Below, piece after piece: positions 1 through 6,537 of a stretch of 64,000 bases of DNA. Location: the NCBI RefSeq assembly GCF_900177375.1, contig NZ_FWZU01000008.1, forward strand, positions 1-64,000. The letters are read 5' to 3'. The stretch comes from Desulfovibrio gilichinskyi (GTDB taxonomy: Bacteria > Desulfobacterota > Desulfovibrionia > Desulfovibrionales > Desulfovibrionaceae). Made by a program: the position numbers and the translations under genes. A model generated the notes under the pieces. That model did no database searches. It was not told the origin of the DNA and saw only the letters and a list, made by a program, of their open reading frames with translations. Each line of letters starts with the position of its first letter. Position 1 is the stretch's first letter.

Positions 1-64
1 AACACAGACCTGTTCTGAATTTAATTAAGCTATCCTTAACTGAATAAGCATAGGATATAGGGCA

Positions 65-98
65 GGGCGGACATGAATAAGCCGAGTCAGGTCCGCCC
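65..98. repeat. Inverted repeat near the window edge
   Basis: An 8-bp stem (GGGCGGAC at 65-72, GTCCGCCC at 91-98) encloses an 18-nt loop. No T-tract follows on either strand, so it is not a clear intrinsic terminator. It may be the terminator remnant of a gene left of the window or a processed 3' end. Bases 1-101 show no other coding or RNA signal. Confidence 0.3.
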
Positions 99-101
99 AA
101 T

Positions 102-140
102 AAAAAAAGGCCGCAAATTTCATAATGAAATTTGCGGCCT
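102..140 (-). terminator. Intrinsic terminator (duplicated copy)
   Basis: The stem GGCCGCAAATTTCA/TGAAATTTGCGGCC has a 3-nt loop and is followed on the minus strand by seven T (102-108). It is identical to the terminator after clpB and would end minus-strand transcripts coming from the amidohydrolase gene. Confidence 0.85.
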
Positions 141-165
141 TCTCGTATCAATTTTATTTTAACTA

Positions 166-258
166 TTAACTGTTCTGGAAAGTAAGTCCGTCGTCGTTTG
201 CATCAATTGATACAGTCTGTTCCTCTTGCAACTTTCCGCTGATAATTTCTTTTGCCAG
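166..258 (-). pseudogene. clpB 3' fragment (31 codons, detached)
   Basis: This is an exact copy of the last 93 bp of clpB, including its stop codon, with no start or upstream part of the gene. It lies 10 bp beyond the stop codon of the amidohydrolase gene and now forms part of that gene's 3' untranslated region. It is a by-product of the duplication and not expected to be translated. Confidence 0.9.
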
Positions 259-268
259 TGAAGGTTTT

Positions 269-1291
269 CTATAAAAAATTTAAAGGATTGGTGTTTGCAA
301 TTTGCCAAAATTTATCTTCACCAAGTGTTGATCTAAGGAAAAGAGATAATTTTTTCTCAGGAAAACCTTTCTGTGTGCTGAGGTAAAAGTCTGACCCGAA
401 GAGAACTTTTGTTCTTAACTTTTCATTTTCAAGTAAGACTTTTAGTATCTTAGCGTTCTCTTTAAAGTTAAAAATAGAGTAGGATATATCTGTATAAAGA
501 TTCTCATATTCTCCTGACCCTATCATTGCCATTATTTTAGCCATCCAATTTGTATTTGCAGATGAGGTTAGACTAGGATTTTCCAGATAATCCTTCCAAG
601 CGGCTTCACCTCCGAAATGAGCTAAACATATTTTTAGGTCTTTATATTTTTTTAAAATTGATTTGTAGTGATCAGGATTTGCATAGTTACTGCATTCTTC
701 TTTGCCTAAATCACGGCTATGTACTGTGGCTGAGGCACAGTGTGCAATGATAGGAATGTTCTTTGTTTCTGCAAATTCATAAATAGGATTTAGTCTTTCA
801 TCATATGGAAAATATCCGAGTGGAGGATATAACTTAATTCCTTTGAATTGTTTTTTTTCAACTAAATCCTTAAGCATTGAAAGAACATCTGGACGGCGAG
901 GATCAATTGCAGCGAAGGGGATAATTTGATTTGGAAAAGAATCTCGAAGTTTTGCTAATTCATCATGTTGTTGTTCAATTGATTTTGAAGGTTTCCCCGC
1001 TCCCATAAACTCCATATCCATCGGTAATATCACAAATTTAGTTTCTGGAGGGTAACATTCACGTACTTTCAGAAAAACTTGATGCTGAGTTTTTTCTCCT
1101 GCTGTAGATAAGAAAGTTGCATACCGGTCAAACAAATCCTTGTTTTTGTGCGGAATTGTTATTCGGAGAAGTGACTGCAAAATTTTCCTCACGAAAGAAT
1201 TTTTTTGTAATAGCGTCAAATCTATACCGATAAATCGAGGTGGAACATGATCAATCGTGAAAGTGTGTAAGTGACAATTATAAATGATCAT
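269..1291 (-). CDS. Amidohydrolase-family metal-dependent hydrolase (Amidohydro_2 type)
   Basis: The protein looks like a TIM-barrel hydrolase of the amidohydrolase-2 group. An N-terminal HLH metal motif lies at residues 7-9. Mid-protein comes a GIKLYPP strand, then an IIAHCAS strand with a candidate ligand His, a CLAHFGG strand, and a C-terminal LFGSDF strand with the expected Asp. The substrate cannot be read from sequence. An upstream in-frame ATG at 1303 exists, but GGAGAG lies 6 nt before the ATG at 1291, which I prefer (340 aa). The gene is clearly more AT-rich than its neighbours, has its own promoter-like sequence, and sits between perfect copies of the clpB tail. Recent acquisition is likely. 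Confidence 0.8.
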   Translation of the reverse strand: MIIYNCHLHTFTIDHVPPRFIGIDLTLLQKNSFVRKILQSLLRITIPHKNKDLFDRYATFLSTAGEKTQHQVFLKVRECYPPETKFVILPMDMEFMGAGKPSKSIEQQHDELAKLRDSFPNQIIPFAAIDPRRPDVLSMLKDLVEKKQFKGIKLYPPLGYFPYDERLNPIYEFAETKNIPIIAHCASATVHSRDLGKEECSNYANPDHYKSILKKYKDLKICLAHFGGEAAWKDYLENPSLTSSANTNWMAKIMAMIGSGEYENLYTDISYSIFNFKENAKILKVLLENEKLRTKVLFGSDFYLSTQKGFPEKKLSLFLRSTLGEDKFWQIANTNPLNFL

Positions 1292-1329
1292 TTTACTCTC
1301 CATTTAGAAAAAATCTAATAATGATTTTT

Positions 1330-1358
1330 ATAATAATCTAAGTATATGATTAATACAA
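1330..1358 (-). promoter_or_regulatory. Sigma-70-like promoter for the amidohydrolase gene
   Basis: On the minus strand TTGTAT and TATTAT are separated by 17 nt, about 40 nt upstream of the preferred start. It lies in the unique part of the insert and downstream of the clpB terminator, so the inserted gene may carry its own promoter. AT-rich sequence raises the chance of a spurious match. Confidence 0.35.
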
Positions 1359-1407
1359 GTGGAGTTGTTATAAAATGTGCAAGTTTCAGCGGAATATCTC
1401 TTTCAAC

Positions 1408-1446
1408 AAAAAAAGGCCGCAAATTTCATAATGAAATTTGCGGCCT
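1408..1446 (-). terminator. clpB intrinsic terminator
   Basis: A 14-bp GC/AT stem starting GGCCGC has a short loop and seven T on the minus strand, about 26 bp after the clpB stop codon. Confidence 0.85.
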
Positions 1447-1564
1447 TCTCGTATCAATTTTATTTTAACTATTAACTGTTCTGGAAAGTAAGTCCGTCGT
1501 CGTTTGCATCAATTGATACAGTCTGTTCCTCTTGCAACTTTCCGCTGATAATTTCTTTTGCCAG
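1408..1564. repeat. Direct repeat copy 2 (native clpB tail plus terminator)
   Basis: This copy is identical to 102-258 and in register with intact clpB, so it is the ancestral location or the restored junction. The repeat unit plus the unique insert measures 1306 bp. Confidence 0.95.
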
Positions 1565-4093
1565 CGGTGTTTCAAGGTGAAGTTGGAGATACCTGCGCAG
1601 AGGTCTTGCTCCGTAAACCGGATCATATGCGCCATGGGCGATAAACGTCTTGGCTCTTTCTGTTACTTCCAGAGACATCTTATGTTCAGCCAGACGAGCG
1701 CGAAGTCCGCCCAGTTGCAGGTCAACAATCTGTTTCAGATCCTTTTCAAGCAGAGGTTTGAATAGCACAGTTTCGTCAACTCTGTTCAGGAATTCCGGCC
1801 TGAAATGTCCGCGCAGGACATTCATAACACTGTCTCCGACTCCTGCTTTAAACTCACCTTCTTCGTCAATTCCTTCTAACAGCAAATGCGATCCAAGGTT
1901 AGAAGTCATAATGATCAAAGTATTTTTGCAGTCTACAGTTCTACCTTGACTGTCGGTAAGACGACCGTCATCAAGAATTTGCAGCAGAACGTTGAAAACA
2001 TCCGGATGAGCTTTCTCCACTTCATCAAAAAGCACAACTGAATACGGTTTTCTTCTGATGGCTTCTGTCAGCTGACCGCCTTCATCGTAACCGATGTATC
2101 CCGGAGGAGCTCCGATGAGTCTGGCGACAGCATGTTTTTCCATGTACTCTGACATGTCTAGGCGTACAATGTTATCTTCAGTGTCAAACAGGGATTCCGC
2201 AAGGGCCTTACACAGTTCTGTTTTACCAACTCCGGTAGGACCGAGGAATATGAATGAGCCAATGGGGCGCGATGGATCTTTAAGTCCTGCACGCGCTCTG
2301 ATTACCGCATCTGATACAGCGCGTACTGCTTCGTCCTGCCCGATAACTCTGGCATGCAGAATTTCTTCAAGTCGCAGCAGCTTTTCTCTTTCACCTTCAA
2401 CCAGTCTGGTTACAGGAATACCTGTCCAGCGAGAGATTATTCCGGCTATGTCATCAGGGCCGACGAATTCTTTCAGCATGCGTGTTCTGGTCACAGAAGA
2501 ATCGTCATCACTGCCTTGAATATCTTTTTCAATTGCTGCAAGTTTCTTATCCAGCTCTAATAGAACTGAATATTTAAGTTCAGCCGCCTTGTTGTAATCA
2601 AGATTTCTTTCAGCTTTTTCAATTTGAATCTTAGTCTGTTCGATTTGTGATTTAAGATCACGTACCGTGTCGATTGATGCTTTTTCTTTTTCCCACTGCT
2701 CAAGAAGCTCGGACTGGGTTATTTTAAGTTCAGTCAGAGAGTCTTCAAGCTTAGCAAGTCTGGTACGCGATCCGCTGTCTTCTTCACGTCTTAAAGCTTC
2801 ACGTTCAATTTCAAATTGCAGAATCTGTCTATTGATTTTGTCAAGCTCATATGGCTGTGAATCAATTTCCGTCCTGATCATGGCTGCTGCTTCGTCAATC
2901 AGGTCAATGGCCTTATCCGGCAGCTGTCTGTCAGGCAAGTAACGGTGTGAAAGTGTTGCAGCCTCAATAAGAGCTGCGTCACTGATGCGCACGCCGTGAT
3001 GAACCTCAAACCTTTCGCGGAGTCCGCGCAGGATTGATATGGTATCCTCAACAGAAGGTTCGTCCACCATGATAGTCTGAAAACGTCTTTCAAGCGCAGG
3101 ATCTTTTTCAATATATTTACGATATTCATCCGTGGTCGTAGCGCCTATGCAGTGGAGTTCACCTCTGGCGAGCATCGGTTTCAGCAGGTTACCTGCGTCC
3201 ATTGCGCCATCGCTTTTACCTGCACCGACTATGGTGTGGATTTCATCAATGAAGATGAGAATCCGGCCTTCGGATTCCTGAACTTCTTTTAATACTGCTT
3301 TGAGGCGTTCTTCAAATTCACCACGATATTTAGCCCCGGCAATAAGCGATCCCATGTCGAGCATAAAAACAGTTTTGTCTTTCAATCCTTCAGGTACATC
3401 CTGCTTGACGATACGCTGCGCCAATCCTTCAATAATCGCTGTTTTACCTACACCGGCCTCACCGATCAGAATAGGATTGTTCTTTGTGCGCCTCGAAAGA
3501 ATGCGGACAACTCGTCTGATTTCAGAGTCACGTCCGATGACGGGGTCAAGTTTGCCTTTACGGGCTTCTTCAACAAGGTCGCGTCCGTATTTTTTAAGCG
3601 CGTCATAAGTGGCTTCAGGGTTGTCAGTTGTTACTCGCTGATTTCCTCTGATGGTTGTCATTGCTTCCAGAACCTTATCTTTAGTCAGGTTGAAGGATGC
3701 GTTGACTTTGCCTGCTCCGGTTGAACCGTGCTCGCCCATGATGGCCAGAAATAAATGTTCAACACTTACGAATTCGTCATGCATGCGTTTGGCAACTTGC
3801 TCTGCCTCAACCATTACACGGTTAAGCCGCTGAGTAACAAAGACCTGCCCGGGCTGTGCTCCGGGGCCGCTGACGCTCGGTAGTTTGTTGATTTCTTTTT
3901 GAACTGCCGCTTTATATGCAGCGGGGTCAATTCCGCTTTTCTGCAGAATTTTAGTGACAATGCCGTTTTCCTGTTCAACCAGCGTGAAGAGCAGGTGCTC
4001 AACTTCTATTTGCTGCTGGCCATTTGAAATGGCCAGAGATTGGGCTTCGGCAATTGCGTCGTTTGTTTTTTTTGTGAATTTATTCGGATCCAT
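1472..4093 (-). CDS. clpB: ATP-dependent disaggregase ClpB
   Basis: ClpB is a cytoplasmic hexameric AAA+ disaggregase that works with DnaK/DnaJ to rescue aggregated proteins. The 873 residues show the Clp N domain (about 1-150), a first AAA+ module with Walker A GEAGVGKT at 211-218 and Walker B FIDE near 281, a long coiled-coil M domain (about 405-525) typical of ClpB rather than ClpA/C, and a second Walker A GPTGVGKT at 618-625. AGGAGA precedes the ATG. It lies downstream of cbpA-cbpM in the same direction, fitting a heat-shock cluster. Its last 93 bp are duplicated at 166-258; this full-length copy is intact. Confidence 0.97.
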
Positions 4094-4197
4094 ATAGAGT
4101 CTCCTTTCTATCAGGTATTGATGACTCGCAAAAAGATTCCAAACTCACTCATTTCGATCGAGATTAAATCCCGGTCTTACGTTGCCGGACGCATTTA

Positions 4198-4219
4198 AAA
4201 GTTCGTTGAATCAACGAAC
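4198..4219 (-). terminator. Hairpin between cbpM and clpB
   Basis: A perfect palindrome (GTTCGTTG, 3-nt loop, CAACGAAC; 4201-4219) is followed on the minus strand by TTTTAA. It lies about 80 bp after cbpM and 105 bp before clpB. It fits a weak intrinsic terminator or attenuator inside the chaperone cluster; a regulator-binding palindrome is the alternative. Confidence 0.5.
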
Positions 4220-4297
4220 ACTTCCGGTTTTTGAGGCAGGAGTCAGAATCCTGAATATGTAGCAAGTCAATTTTAACATTATTTAAAATTGCACAAA

Positions 4298-4612
4298 TTA
4301 AATAAGTTTGCGCATTTCTTCAACTCGAGCTTCCAGTTGTTCAACTCTGTCCAGAAGGTCCACAATAATAGACCCTCCGGCTGCGGTAATTTCCAGATCC
4401 CGGCATAACCTTGAAAGTTTGCTGAGCCTGTAAAGATCCCGCGTTTCAAAAAGATATTGTCCATCACCGGTTGTAGCAGGGGAGACCCATTCAAGGCTGA
4501 TAAGTTCCAGAACAGTTTCTTCTTCAAGCCCTGTCATTTCTACAATCTGCGCGAACAATAATCTGCGTGAGCGACTGGGAGGATTGGCCTCTGTTCTTTT
4601 CTTAATATCCAT
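4298..4612 (-). CDS. cbpM: CbpM-like chaperone modulator (MerR-type HTH)
   Basis: This 104-aa protein has an N-terminal winged-HTH-like segment (FAQIVEMTGLEEETVLELISLEW) and a C-terminal amphipathic helix (LLDRVEQLEARVEEMRKLI). This is the layout of CbpM/MerR_2 proteins, which bind and inhibit the J domain of CbpA. GGGAG lies about 10 nt before the ATG. It starts 14 bp after the cbpA stop codon, the usual cbpA-cbpM arrangement. Function is inferred from size, domain and partner gene. Confidence 0.8.
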   Translation of the reverse strand: MDIKKRTEANPPSRSRRLLFAQIVEMTGLEEETVLELISLEWVSPATTGDGQYLFETRDLYRLSKLSRLCRDLEITAAGGSIIVDLLDRVEQLEARVEEMRKLI

Positions 4613-4626
4613 GGGCTAAATCTCCC

Positions 4627-5610
4627 TTAGAATGATCTCGGGCTGAATTTTGTTTTTTCAGATAATTCTTCCCAAAGTTTTTTTACTTCATCGGAATCTG
4701 CAACAGGCACTTGAATCATTATTCTGATGAACTGATCACCTTTCTTAGGTCCGGCTCCCAGTCCACGTCCTTTAACTCTCAGTTTTTTACCGCTTCCCAT
4801 TCCTGCCGGAATATTCATTTCAATCATTCCGTCAAGAGTCGGGACTTTAGCTTTAACGCCAAGGGCTGCTTCCCAAGGAGCGAGCGGAAGATCCAAAATA
4901 ATATTGTTTTCTTCCACCTTATAAAGAGCGTGCGGAGCTAATCTTATTTTCAGATAAAGATCACCGGAAGGACCATCTCCTGGGCCGGGTGCTCCCTGAT
5001 TTGCCAGACGTATCTTTTGACCGTCTTTAATTCCGGCAGGTATATTCACGTCAAGATTTTTTGACTGAACCATTGGATGACCGCCGGGGCCGGTTGTACG
5101 TTCCTGAACTGAAATAGATTTTGATCCGCCTTTATATGCTTCTTCAAGTGTCAAAGTCAGAGCTGTTTCGGAATCAGCTCCTTTCTGGGGACGTTGCTGA
5201 AATCCGCCGCCGCCGAACCCCTGTGCTCCGCCGAATCCGCCGCGACCTCCGCCGGCTCCGCCGAAAATGGTTTCGAAGAAGTCACTGAAATCGCCGCCGG
5301 CGAATCCCTGTGCACCGCCGAACCCCTGTCCGCCGAAGTTCATATTTTCATGTCCCGGAGGTGGCTGAAAGTTCTGACCGTGTTCCCAGTCAGCACCGAA
5401 CTGGTCATACATTTTACGCTTTTTGGGGTCTTTCAGGACTTCATAAGCTTCGTTTATTTCTTTAAACTTCGTTTCGGACTCTGGATTATCATGATTCAAG
5501 TCGGGATGATGCTTGCGCGCCAGCTTTTTGAATGCTTTTGATATTTCATCCTTAGAGGCGGAGCGCGAAACTCCCAGAAGTTTATAGTAGTCTTTATATT
5601 TTACACTCAT
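4627..5610 (-). CDS. cbpA: DnaJ-class co-chaperone CbpA
   Basis: The protein has a J domain in the first ~70 residues with the HPD motif (KHHPDLNH), a Gly/Phe-rich linker (about 80-150) and two DnaJ C-terminal beta domains. It lacks the CxxCxGxG zinc repeats of DnaJ, so it is a type II J protein (CbpA). I place the start at 5610, where AAGGAG is 10 nt upstream; the in-frame ATG at 5640 has no ribosome-binding site. It stimulates DnaK and is probably regulated by the adjacent CbpM. Confidence 0.92.
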
Positions 5611-5667
5611 CTCGTCAGTACTCCTTAAATATTTCGCCATCGTAGCAGAACGGCGTCACCATATCAA

Positions 5668-5693
5668 AGTATATCGCCATTAGATCAAGTCAA
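5668..5693 (-). promoter_or_regulatory. Possible promoter of cbpA
   Basis: The minus strand reads TTGACT, 14 nt, TATACT about 60 bp upstream of cbpA. The spacing is short for sigma-70, and I see no convincing sigma-32 match (CCCCAT-like -10) or CIRCE element, so the call is weak. Confidence 0.25.
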
Positions 5694-5805
5694 GCGTAAT
5701 GATTGGATTTAGATTGTAGTTTAAACGAAAATTCCGGTAAATATACCCGGGAATATAGAATTTCCCTATGTTCAGGAGGAGAATTGATACAATGAAAAAA
5801 TGCAA

Positions 5806-6537
5806 TTAAAAATCATCCGGCAGTTCGTAGTCCTTTTTTGCATGGTCATAACAGTATTTGCAGCGATCTTTTTTGATGAAGAAGCGTACTAAAATTAAGC
5901 CTGTAACAAACCCTCCGATATGTGCTCCCCATGCAATTTGTTGTGTTCCGCCTGAAATCTGTTCTGCAAAACCGGAAAAGATTTGAAGGGCAAACCATAT
6001 TCCCAAAAAAAGTCCGGCCGGAATTTTAAAAAAAAGCGGCACAATAATGATAGGGATGAGAGTTAAAACACGTCCGTGCGGGTAGAGAACGAAGTAGGCA
6101 CCCATTATTCCAGCGACGGCTCCGGAAGCACCTATGATCGGTGCATTGGCAGACGGGGTGAGCAATATCTGCGTTGCAATGGCACTGAGTCCGCAGATTA
6201 TATAAAAAGCTAAAAATCTTATATGGCCCATGGCATCTTCAATGTTATCAGCGAAAATCCAAAGCATCCACATGTTCAGTATTATGTGAATCCAGCCGCT
6301 GTGAAGGAACATGTAAGTGAAAAAGGGGAGCATTCCCGCAGATGGATAACCTGTCGCAACCGCCCATTCTGGACTCATATAGCGGGCAGGCACAACCCCT
6401 AATAAATGGAAAATTGCCAGTTTTGCGGGGGGGGCAAGGAACATCTCCATCAAAAAAGTTGTGATATTGGCCGTCATCAGTGCCCAAAGGACATAAGGGC
6501 TGATCAGGCAGGGAACATTATCTCGGATGGGTATCAT
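5806..6537 (-). CDS. Rhomboid-family intramembrane serine protease
   Basis: This polytopic inner-membrane protein of 243 aa carries the rhomboid catalytic pair: Ser about 138 in GASGAVAG and His about 206 in AHIGGF, plus HIILNMW in the second helix region. The start MIPIRDNVP is the classical N-terminus of this subgroup; the longer frame begins with TTG inside a terminator hairpin and is rejected. No strong Shine-Dalgarno is visible. The C-terminus ends with a short cytoplasmic CKYC tail. The substrate is unknown. The start codon lies 15 bp after the terminator of the upstream RNA, so the gene may rely on read-through or a promoter within the RNA region. Confidence 0.9.
   Translation of the reverse strand: MIPIRDNVPCLISPYVLWALMTANITTFLMEMFLAPPAKLAIFHLLGVVPARYMSPEWAVATGYPSAGMLPFFTYMFLHSGWIHIILNMWMLWIFADNIEDAMGHIRFLAFYIICGLSAIATQILLTPSANAPIIGASGAVAGIMGAYFVLYPHGRVLTLIPIIIVPLFFKIPAGLFLGIWFALQIFSGFAEQISGGTQQIAWGAHIGGFVTGLILVRFFIKKDRCKYCYDHAKKDYELPDDF

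Follow-up and report, generated by a model that had tools for sequence, protein, structure and literature searches.

A gene inserted between two copies of the clpB 3' end in Desulfovibrio gilichinskyi, most likely a scar of horizontal gene gain by single crossover

Structure of the clpB locus

The stretch of DNA analyzed here (the window) comprised bases 1-64,000 of contig C8 of the D. gilichinskyi genome (G000), a draft assembly of 14 contigs and 3.96 Mb. Read along the minus strand, the locus contained an intact clpB of 873 aa (1472-4093, named by eye from its sequence and from genus comparisons), a terminator, an amidohydrolase gene (269-1303), a copy of the last 31 clpB codons with the terminator, and a flank (1-97) running to the end of the contig. 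An earlier note on this DNA had described a perfect direct repeat, and the observation was confirmed as real: positions 102-258 and 1408-1564 were identical at all 157 bases. The match could be extended to 98-258 and 1404-1564, where 160 of 161 bases agreed and the only difference was T101 versus C1407; it ended at 258/1564, with no extension beyond. The start-to-start spacing of the copies was 1306 bp, the unit length that had been given. When the whole window was scanned for direct repeats of at least 40 bp (seed 16), this pair was the sole one returned, so chance is no explanation for it.

As had also been claimed, both copies contained the last 31 clpB codons including the stop codon (93 nt, encoding 30 residues) and a terminator hairpin. 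The first copy (1404-1564, minus strand) belongs to the intact clpB, and the second (98-258, minus strand) joins the flank, so that the insert is bounded by direct copies of a host segment. Past the repeat edges identity was 9/30 and 4/30. The inserted gene is separated from the second tail copy by a short junction (259-268), and since only 9 of the 30 bp beyond this copy matched clpB, the edge is abrupt.

A very stable hairpin followed by a T run was present in both copies (102-148 and 1408-1454, minus strand), with folding energies of -30.5 and -29.5 kcal/mol and z values of -7.9 and -6.9. A consensus terminator scan returned no terminator, perhaps because it requires a loop of 3-8 bases and has other limits. 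As the stop codon of the inserted gene lies 10 bp from the tail copy, the sole terminator seen behind this gene is the copied one of clpB. The earlier note had also assigned the gene its own promoter, which was not recovered: in the upstream region (1304-1403), the consensus scan of the minus strand at 1303-1403 gave nothing above threshold, and over positions 1-1700 it gave 7 matches with 5.6 expected. An Rfam search gave 7 matches at E values up to 1, every one of them under the gathering score of its family.

The flank (1-97, minus strand) contained a repeat of the kind found in rhs-type promoter regions, with a hairpin fold at about 64-99, and the same order beside clpB was seen in two sister species (G002 and G003). 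A segment of 95 bp in the flank was identical to C5:1-95 and C1:178065-178159. The clpB repeat thus lies 97 bp from base 1 of a contig that breaks in multi-copy sequence.

The inserted gene

Between the two copies there was one open reading frame of at least 50 aa, an intact gene of 344 aa at 269-1303 on the minus strand, in line with the single AT-rich amidohydrolase gene that had been proposed. A second ATG at 1291, which by eye stands behind GGAG, is the likelier start. The product matched PF04909 (Amidohydro_2; E = 4.7e-19) with 69.7 bits compared to a curated cut-off of 26.4, and is predicted to be a metal-dependent hydrolase; an NCBIfam search with it gave no match. Residues H11, H13, H188, H229 and D305, which we take to be those of the His/Asp metal-site motif, were invariant in all seven aligned proteins (the product and six homologues). 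The G+C content was 34.3% for the gene and 33.3% for positions 259-1403; clpB had 46.3% and the window as a whole 42.3%.

Among 17 genomes of the genus the gene was found only in its own and in none of the 16 others searched, and at E values of 1e-30 or below it was found in two of 395 genomes of the phylum, its own and G500. The nearest homologue, among 16 loci found in a collection of named species, was a gene at 52% in a SAR324 metagenome-assembled genome (MAG). No integrase or transposase was seen by eye among the listed neighbouring ORFs of the SAR324 MAG contig and of G500. Phage and viral contig collections gave no match to the gene, and the 41 plasmid records that did match all had less than 60% identity, with the best 20 of the 41 at 23-29%; an origin as phage or plasmid cargo was rejected on these grounds. 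The gene had no other place in its own assembly. From these sequence comparisons, a foreign origin of the gene is supported.

Empty sites and the neighbourhood of clpB in the genus

One genome per species was compared. Alignment of the region downstream of clpB, which the earlier note had proposed as a check, revealed empty sites in the two sister species G003 and G002, where window positions 1-258 were matched without a break at 83% and 82%, respectively. The unbroken stretch included the clpB tail, the terminator and the hairpin-bearing region before an rhs-type gene. In G002 this gene matched a YD-shell (PF25023) and an RHS repeat, and the gene in G003 grouped with it. Because the join of clpB to its tail and the join of the tail to the flank are both ancestral, the added unit consists of the cargo and one tail copy (1306 bp), and the empty site is single-copy and continuous in both species. 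The most similar clpB tail was that of G008, with 93% identity over the matched 108 bp; there, no ORF of at least 70 aa was found between clpB and the next conserved gene, and the terminator differed. A conserved convergent gene, FeoB-like by eye, was within the stretch covered in 13 of the 16 other genus loci.

Self-comparison of these 16 loci revealed no duplication of the clpB tail, with two loci (L060, 487 bp, and L057, 4000 bp) saying little. A recurring element at clpB, for which the earlier note had suggested looking for the same tail duplication in related strains, was rejected on the basis of these loci. Other cargo genes, which were part of the same suggested check, did occur at this spot in some of them: rhs-type genes in G002 and G003 and a relative of them in G011 lay between clpB and the next conserved gene, but without a tail copy. 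The clpB tail was also searched over 297 genomes of the order, where only the best matches were listed and duplications in other genera may be missed. As a separate observation, the spot in G011 (L061:548-2753) contained, besides the ORF with rhs-type relatives in G002 and G003, an internal repeat of 111 bp at 77% identity, arranged as in tip-displacement arrays; the ORF had no Pfam match.

A second case and a survey of repeats

A repeat survey covered 1.95 Mb of the same genome (C1:1-1,000,000, C4:1-550,000 and C5:1-400,000) and 0.4 Mb of G008. It gave 34 pairs in the own genome, which we sorted with labels assigned mostly by eye, and the window case is additional to these. There were 21 pairs in rhs-type arrays on C4, 7 among tandem paralogues (two at C1:75k, four at C1:912k and one at C5:260k), one formed by the hairpin repeat (C1:178k) and one beside a transposase-like fragment (C4:410k), and two of 50 bp (C4:113.5k) and 61 bp (C4:438k) were left without explanation. 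The pair C1:780082/780894 surrounds a parvulin-like gene in the same shape and was not counted, since the copies on both sides are remnants and the unit appears to have been exchanged among species. The remaining pair, the sole one that we count as clean, is hereafter called case 2. A scan with other limits also gave a few pairs less than 400 bp apart. In G008 three pairs were found, all among tandem paralogues, and this 0.4 Mb of one relative is the basis for judging how frequent such scars are outside the own genome.

In case 2 a repeat of 227 bp with 90.7% identity (C1:144962-145185 and C1:146217-146439) surrounded a desaturase-like gene, which has an intact yciI-like gene on one side and, on the other, a broken copy of the yciI-like 5' end followed by a STAS-like gene (all three labels by eye). 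The G+C content was 46% for the desaturase-like gene and 32% for the yciI-like gene. The region was single-copy in G008, G002, G011 and G004. At E values of 1e-40 or below the desaturase was found in 10 of 199 genomes of the family, its own included, and in none of the 15 other genus genomes listed.

The two copies were compared with G008 in blocks of 50 columns, T1 being the copy in the intact yciI-like gene and T2 the other. The counts were 41/44, 46/50, 46/50, 42/49, 34/46 and, in the last block, 4/11 for T1, and 30/44, 44/47, 46/50, 44/50, 42/48 and 9/12 for T2. T1 was therefore native-like on the yciI side (41/44) and weaker on the cargo side (34/46), and T2 was weaker on the cargo side (30/44) and native-like on the outer side (42/48), with a core shared between T1 and T2 (47/47, 50/50 and 46/49). 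A crossover with a diverged circle would predict such hybrid copies, and the pattern appears to fit, noisily; it is seen over short edges and with modest contrast (30/44 versus 41/44, with 11-12 columns in the last block). At the left edge T1 and T2 agreed at 18 of 33 positions without five core letters, a value reached by 24 of 100,000 shuffles, and at 23 of 38 with them, reached by 1 of 100,000. This edge is thus more likely diverged homology than unrelated DNA.

Origin of the insertion

The earlier note had suggested that a circular intermediate, or a single crossover with related DNA, would leave such a footprint; the intact clpB, the foreign cargo and the empty sites fit this suggestion, and the earlier reading is supported in part. 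On balance, we regard the clpB locus as an insertion-duplication by single crossover. A fragment with the clpB 3' end followed by the foreign amidohydrolase gene would have entered the cell or formed inside it, and its free ends would have been joined to give a small circle with one 161-bp piece of clpB tail and the gene. One RecA-type crossover between the tail piece of the circle and the chromosomal clpB tail would then have inserted the circle, with clpB left whole and the gene flanked by two tail copies, the second of which would terminate the cargo transcript. Gene conversion may have acted on the two copies afterwards and preserved their identity. No donor for such a circle was seen among phages and viral contigs, and the plasmid matches were distant. 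The locus is accordingly most likely the scar of a horizontal gene gain by single crossover of a re-closed fragment, and ordinary recombination accounts for it better than a new kind of mobile element would.

Several known systems have features of this arrangement. Unconventional circularizable structures resemble the clpB unit in having cargo flanked by long direct repeats and no recombinase, but they carry resistance genes, occur mostly in Gram-positive cocci and their circles have been detected. The minimal mobile elements of Neisseria have variable gene content between conserved neighbours, as here, but are not known to have a flanking duplication. The clpB unit itself consists of cargo between long direct repeats without a recombinase; it is 1.3 kb long, and its near-perfect repeats are made of a host gene end. 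In the Microcin H47 genomic island, recombinase-less cargo is likewise reported between direct repeats of about 150 bp (148 and 144 bp), but that island is 13 kb long with imperfect repeats, and RecA-independent excision was detected by PCR (PMC5426353). Direct repeats, most of them shorter than 30 bp, are reported to flank 10-18% of the small variable segments of E. coli, Staphylococcus aureus and Streptococcus pyogenes (PMC2884548), so by that report the 161-bp repeat is unusual whereas the shape is not.

The closest parallel is a laboratory one. According to PMC3240628, when linear DNA with one homologous end entered E. coli, 56 of 60 clones yielded a duplication PCR product, and in 14 sequenced clones the duplicated part of the lacZ end measured 109-950 bp, a range that includes our 161 bp; the remaining 4 of 60 were attributed to homology-facilitated illegitimate recombination with deletion. 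Its authors inferred partial end degradation, re-circularisation and a single crossover (PMC3240628). In both settings foreign DNA lies between two copies of a gene 3' end, but the reported one was a conjugation with a plasmid in E. coli, whereas the clpB locus is a natural single-gene insert. For rhs tip arrays, a circle and a single crossover have been proposed (PMC2935791), and rhs-type arrays are contained in the present genome. C-terminal tip displacement as proposed there also leaves a copy of a gene part downstream, but its cargo is a new tip fused to the gene (PMC2935791); at clpB the gene end is unchanged and the cargo is separate, not a tip fused to an rhs core. In the literature we found this route described only for crosses in the laboratory and, as a proposal, for rhs genes. 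A search for natural recircularised insertions returned none, which with strict terms and limited coverage counts for little.

A replication template switch is a serious rival, although it appears clearly less probable. The fork would have stalled at the strong terminator hairpin, copied the foreign gene and rejoined its template 161 bp upstream; the clpB end would thereby be duplicated in a single step. On the clpB side the junction does follow a hairpin of about -30 kcal/mol by a few bases, and abrupt edges with near-identical copies need no donor tail. In the window a hybrid signature is not visible, as the copies are identical and both edges are abrupt; with near-identical copies and such edges, this case alone cannot separate a crossover from a template switch. 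However, the switch would have to occur twice, onto and off unrelated DNA, and would leave the diverged edges of case 2 unexplained.

It is unlikely that a ready-made tail-gene-tail structure, arisen elsewhere, was imported from another strain of the same species by ordinary double crossover on either side, in clpB and rhs DNA. What lies between clpB and the next conserved gene does vary within the genus, and an import would be compatible with any origin of the duplication, but it postpones the question, and no second carrier was present in the 17 genus genomes, a set in which one genome per species makes strains invisible.

We consider it improbable that the assembly is at fault and that a single tail copy, or a miscounted tandem array of several tail-gene units, is really present. 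Such an error could be suspected from the position of the repeat, 97 bp from a contig end that breaks in multi-copy sequence, but an assembler should need both junctions in the reads, a single base (101/1407) distinguishes the two copies, and the assembly offers the cargo no other place.

Very improbable, finally, is a mobile element moved by an integrase acting in trans, with the clpB 3' end as attachment site and the gene restored by the copy that the element brings. An intact gene, cargo and a displaced tail, the shape seen here, are also what integrative elements leave when they sit in gene 3' ends, but the 157-bp identical stretch exceeds the usual att cores, and the 16 other genus loci, two of them short, had no clpB tail duplication. 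Furthermore, as the earlier note had stated, no integrase or transposase is encoded in the unit, where the hydrolase was the one ORF of at least 50 aa between the copies. A transposon or insertion sequence was rejected, as there was neither a transposase ORF nor terminal inverted repeats; four inverted pairs were found at 1-6000 (minimum 20), and only the terminator palindromes stood at the ends of the cargo.

Under the single-crossover reading, the clpB locus offers a clean natural footprint of the way in which a conserved host gene can gain one foreign neighbour from an insert that encodes no mobile-element enzyme. Together with case 2 it gives a searchable signature, a single gene between copies of a neighbour's end with an empty site in sister species, which could be used to measure the share of gene gain that comes from single crossovers of re-closed fragments.

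Hairpin repeat and other observations

The hairpin repeat of the flank (approximately CGGACCTGACTCGGCTTATTCATGTCCG; window 64-99; L067, L068, L069, L079 and L080) occurred in 11 copies with up to 5 substitutions in the 1.95 Mb and the window. Four copies precede rhs-type ORFs, at C1:178k and at C4:227k, 243k and 247k (by eye, with PF25023 for 247k), and three precede phage-matching ORFs, namely a protease and major head gene (C1:173k), a tail and internal virion gene (C1:179.6k) and an endolysin gene (C5:4.9k). These virion genes are distributed over contigs C1 and C5 and interspersed with ordinary genes, possibly a domesticated phage or a set like that of a gene-transfer agent; a gene-transfer agent (Dd1) has been reported from Desulfovibrio (PMC11841831, PMC11409702). 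It seems scarcely probable that the genus regularly, and not just rarely, gains single genes by circle closure and single crossover, with gene-end duplications of 150-240 bp left as datable scars; phage-like particles, whose split virion genes have the 5' hairpin in common with rhs loci, might then supply such a route.

The parvulin-like gene (by eye) and its flanks (C1:780082-781031; L161-L162) lie about 4.6 kb from a tmRNA gene, between remnants of the tail of one gene. Of the 16 other genus genomes, 8 had this unit at 93-96% identity and 7 at 82-90%, and 1 had no match; in four of the eight (G002, G003, G004 and G011) the clpB tail DNA was only 78-83% identical. Close to it, a sequence of about 100 bp (C1:779892-780021) had matches of 77-88% in 10 of the 16 other genus genomes, with more than one copy in G013 and G014.
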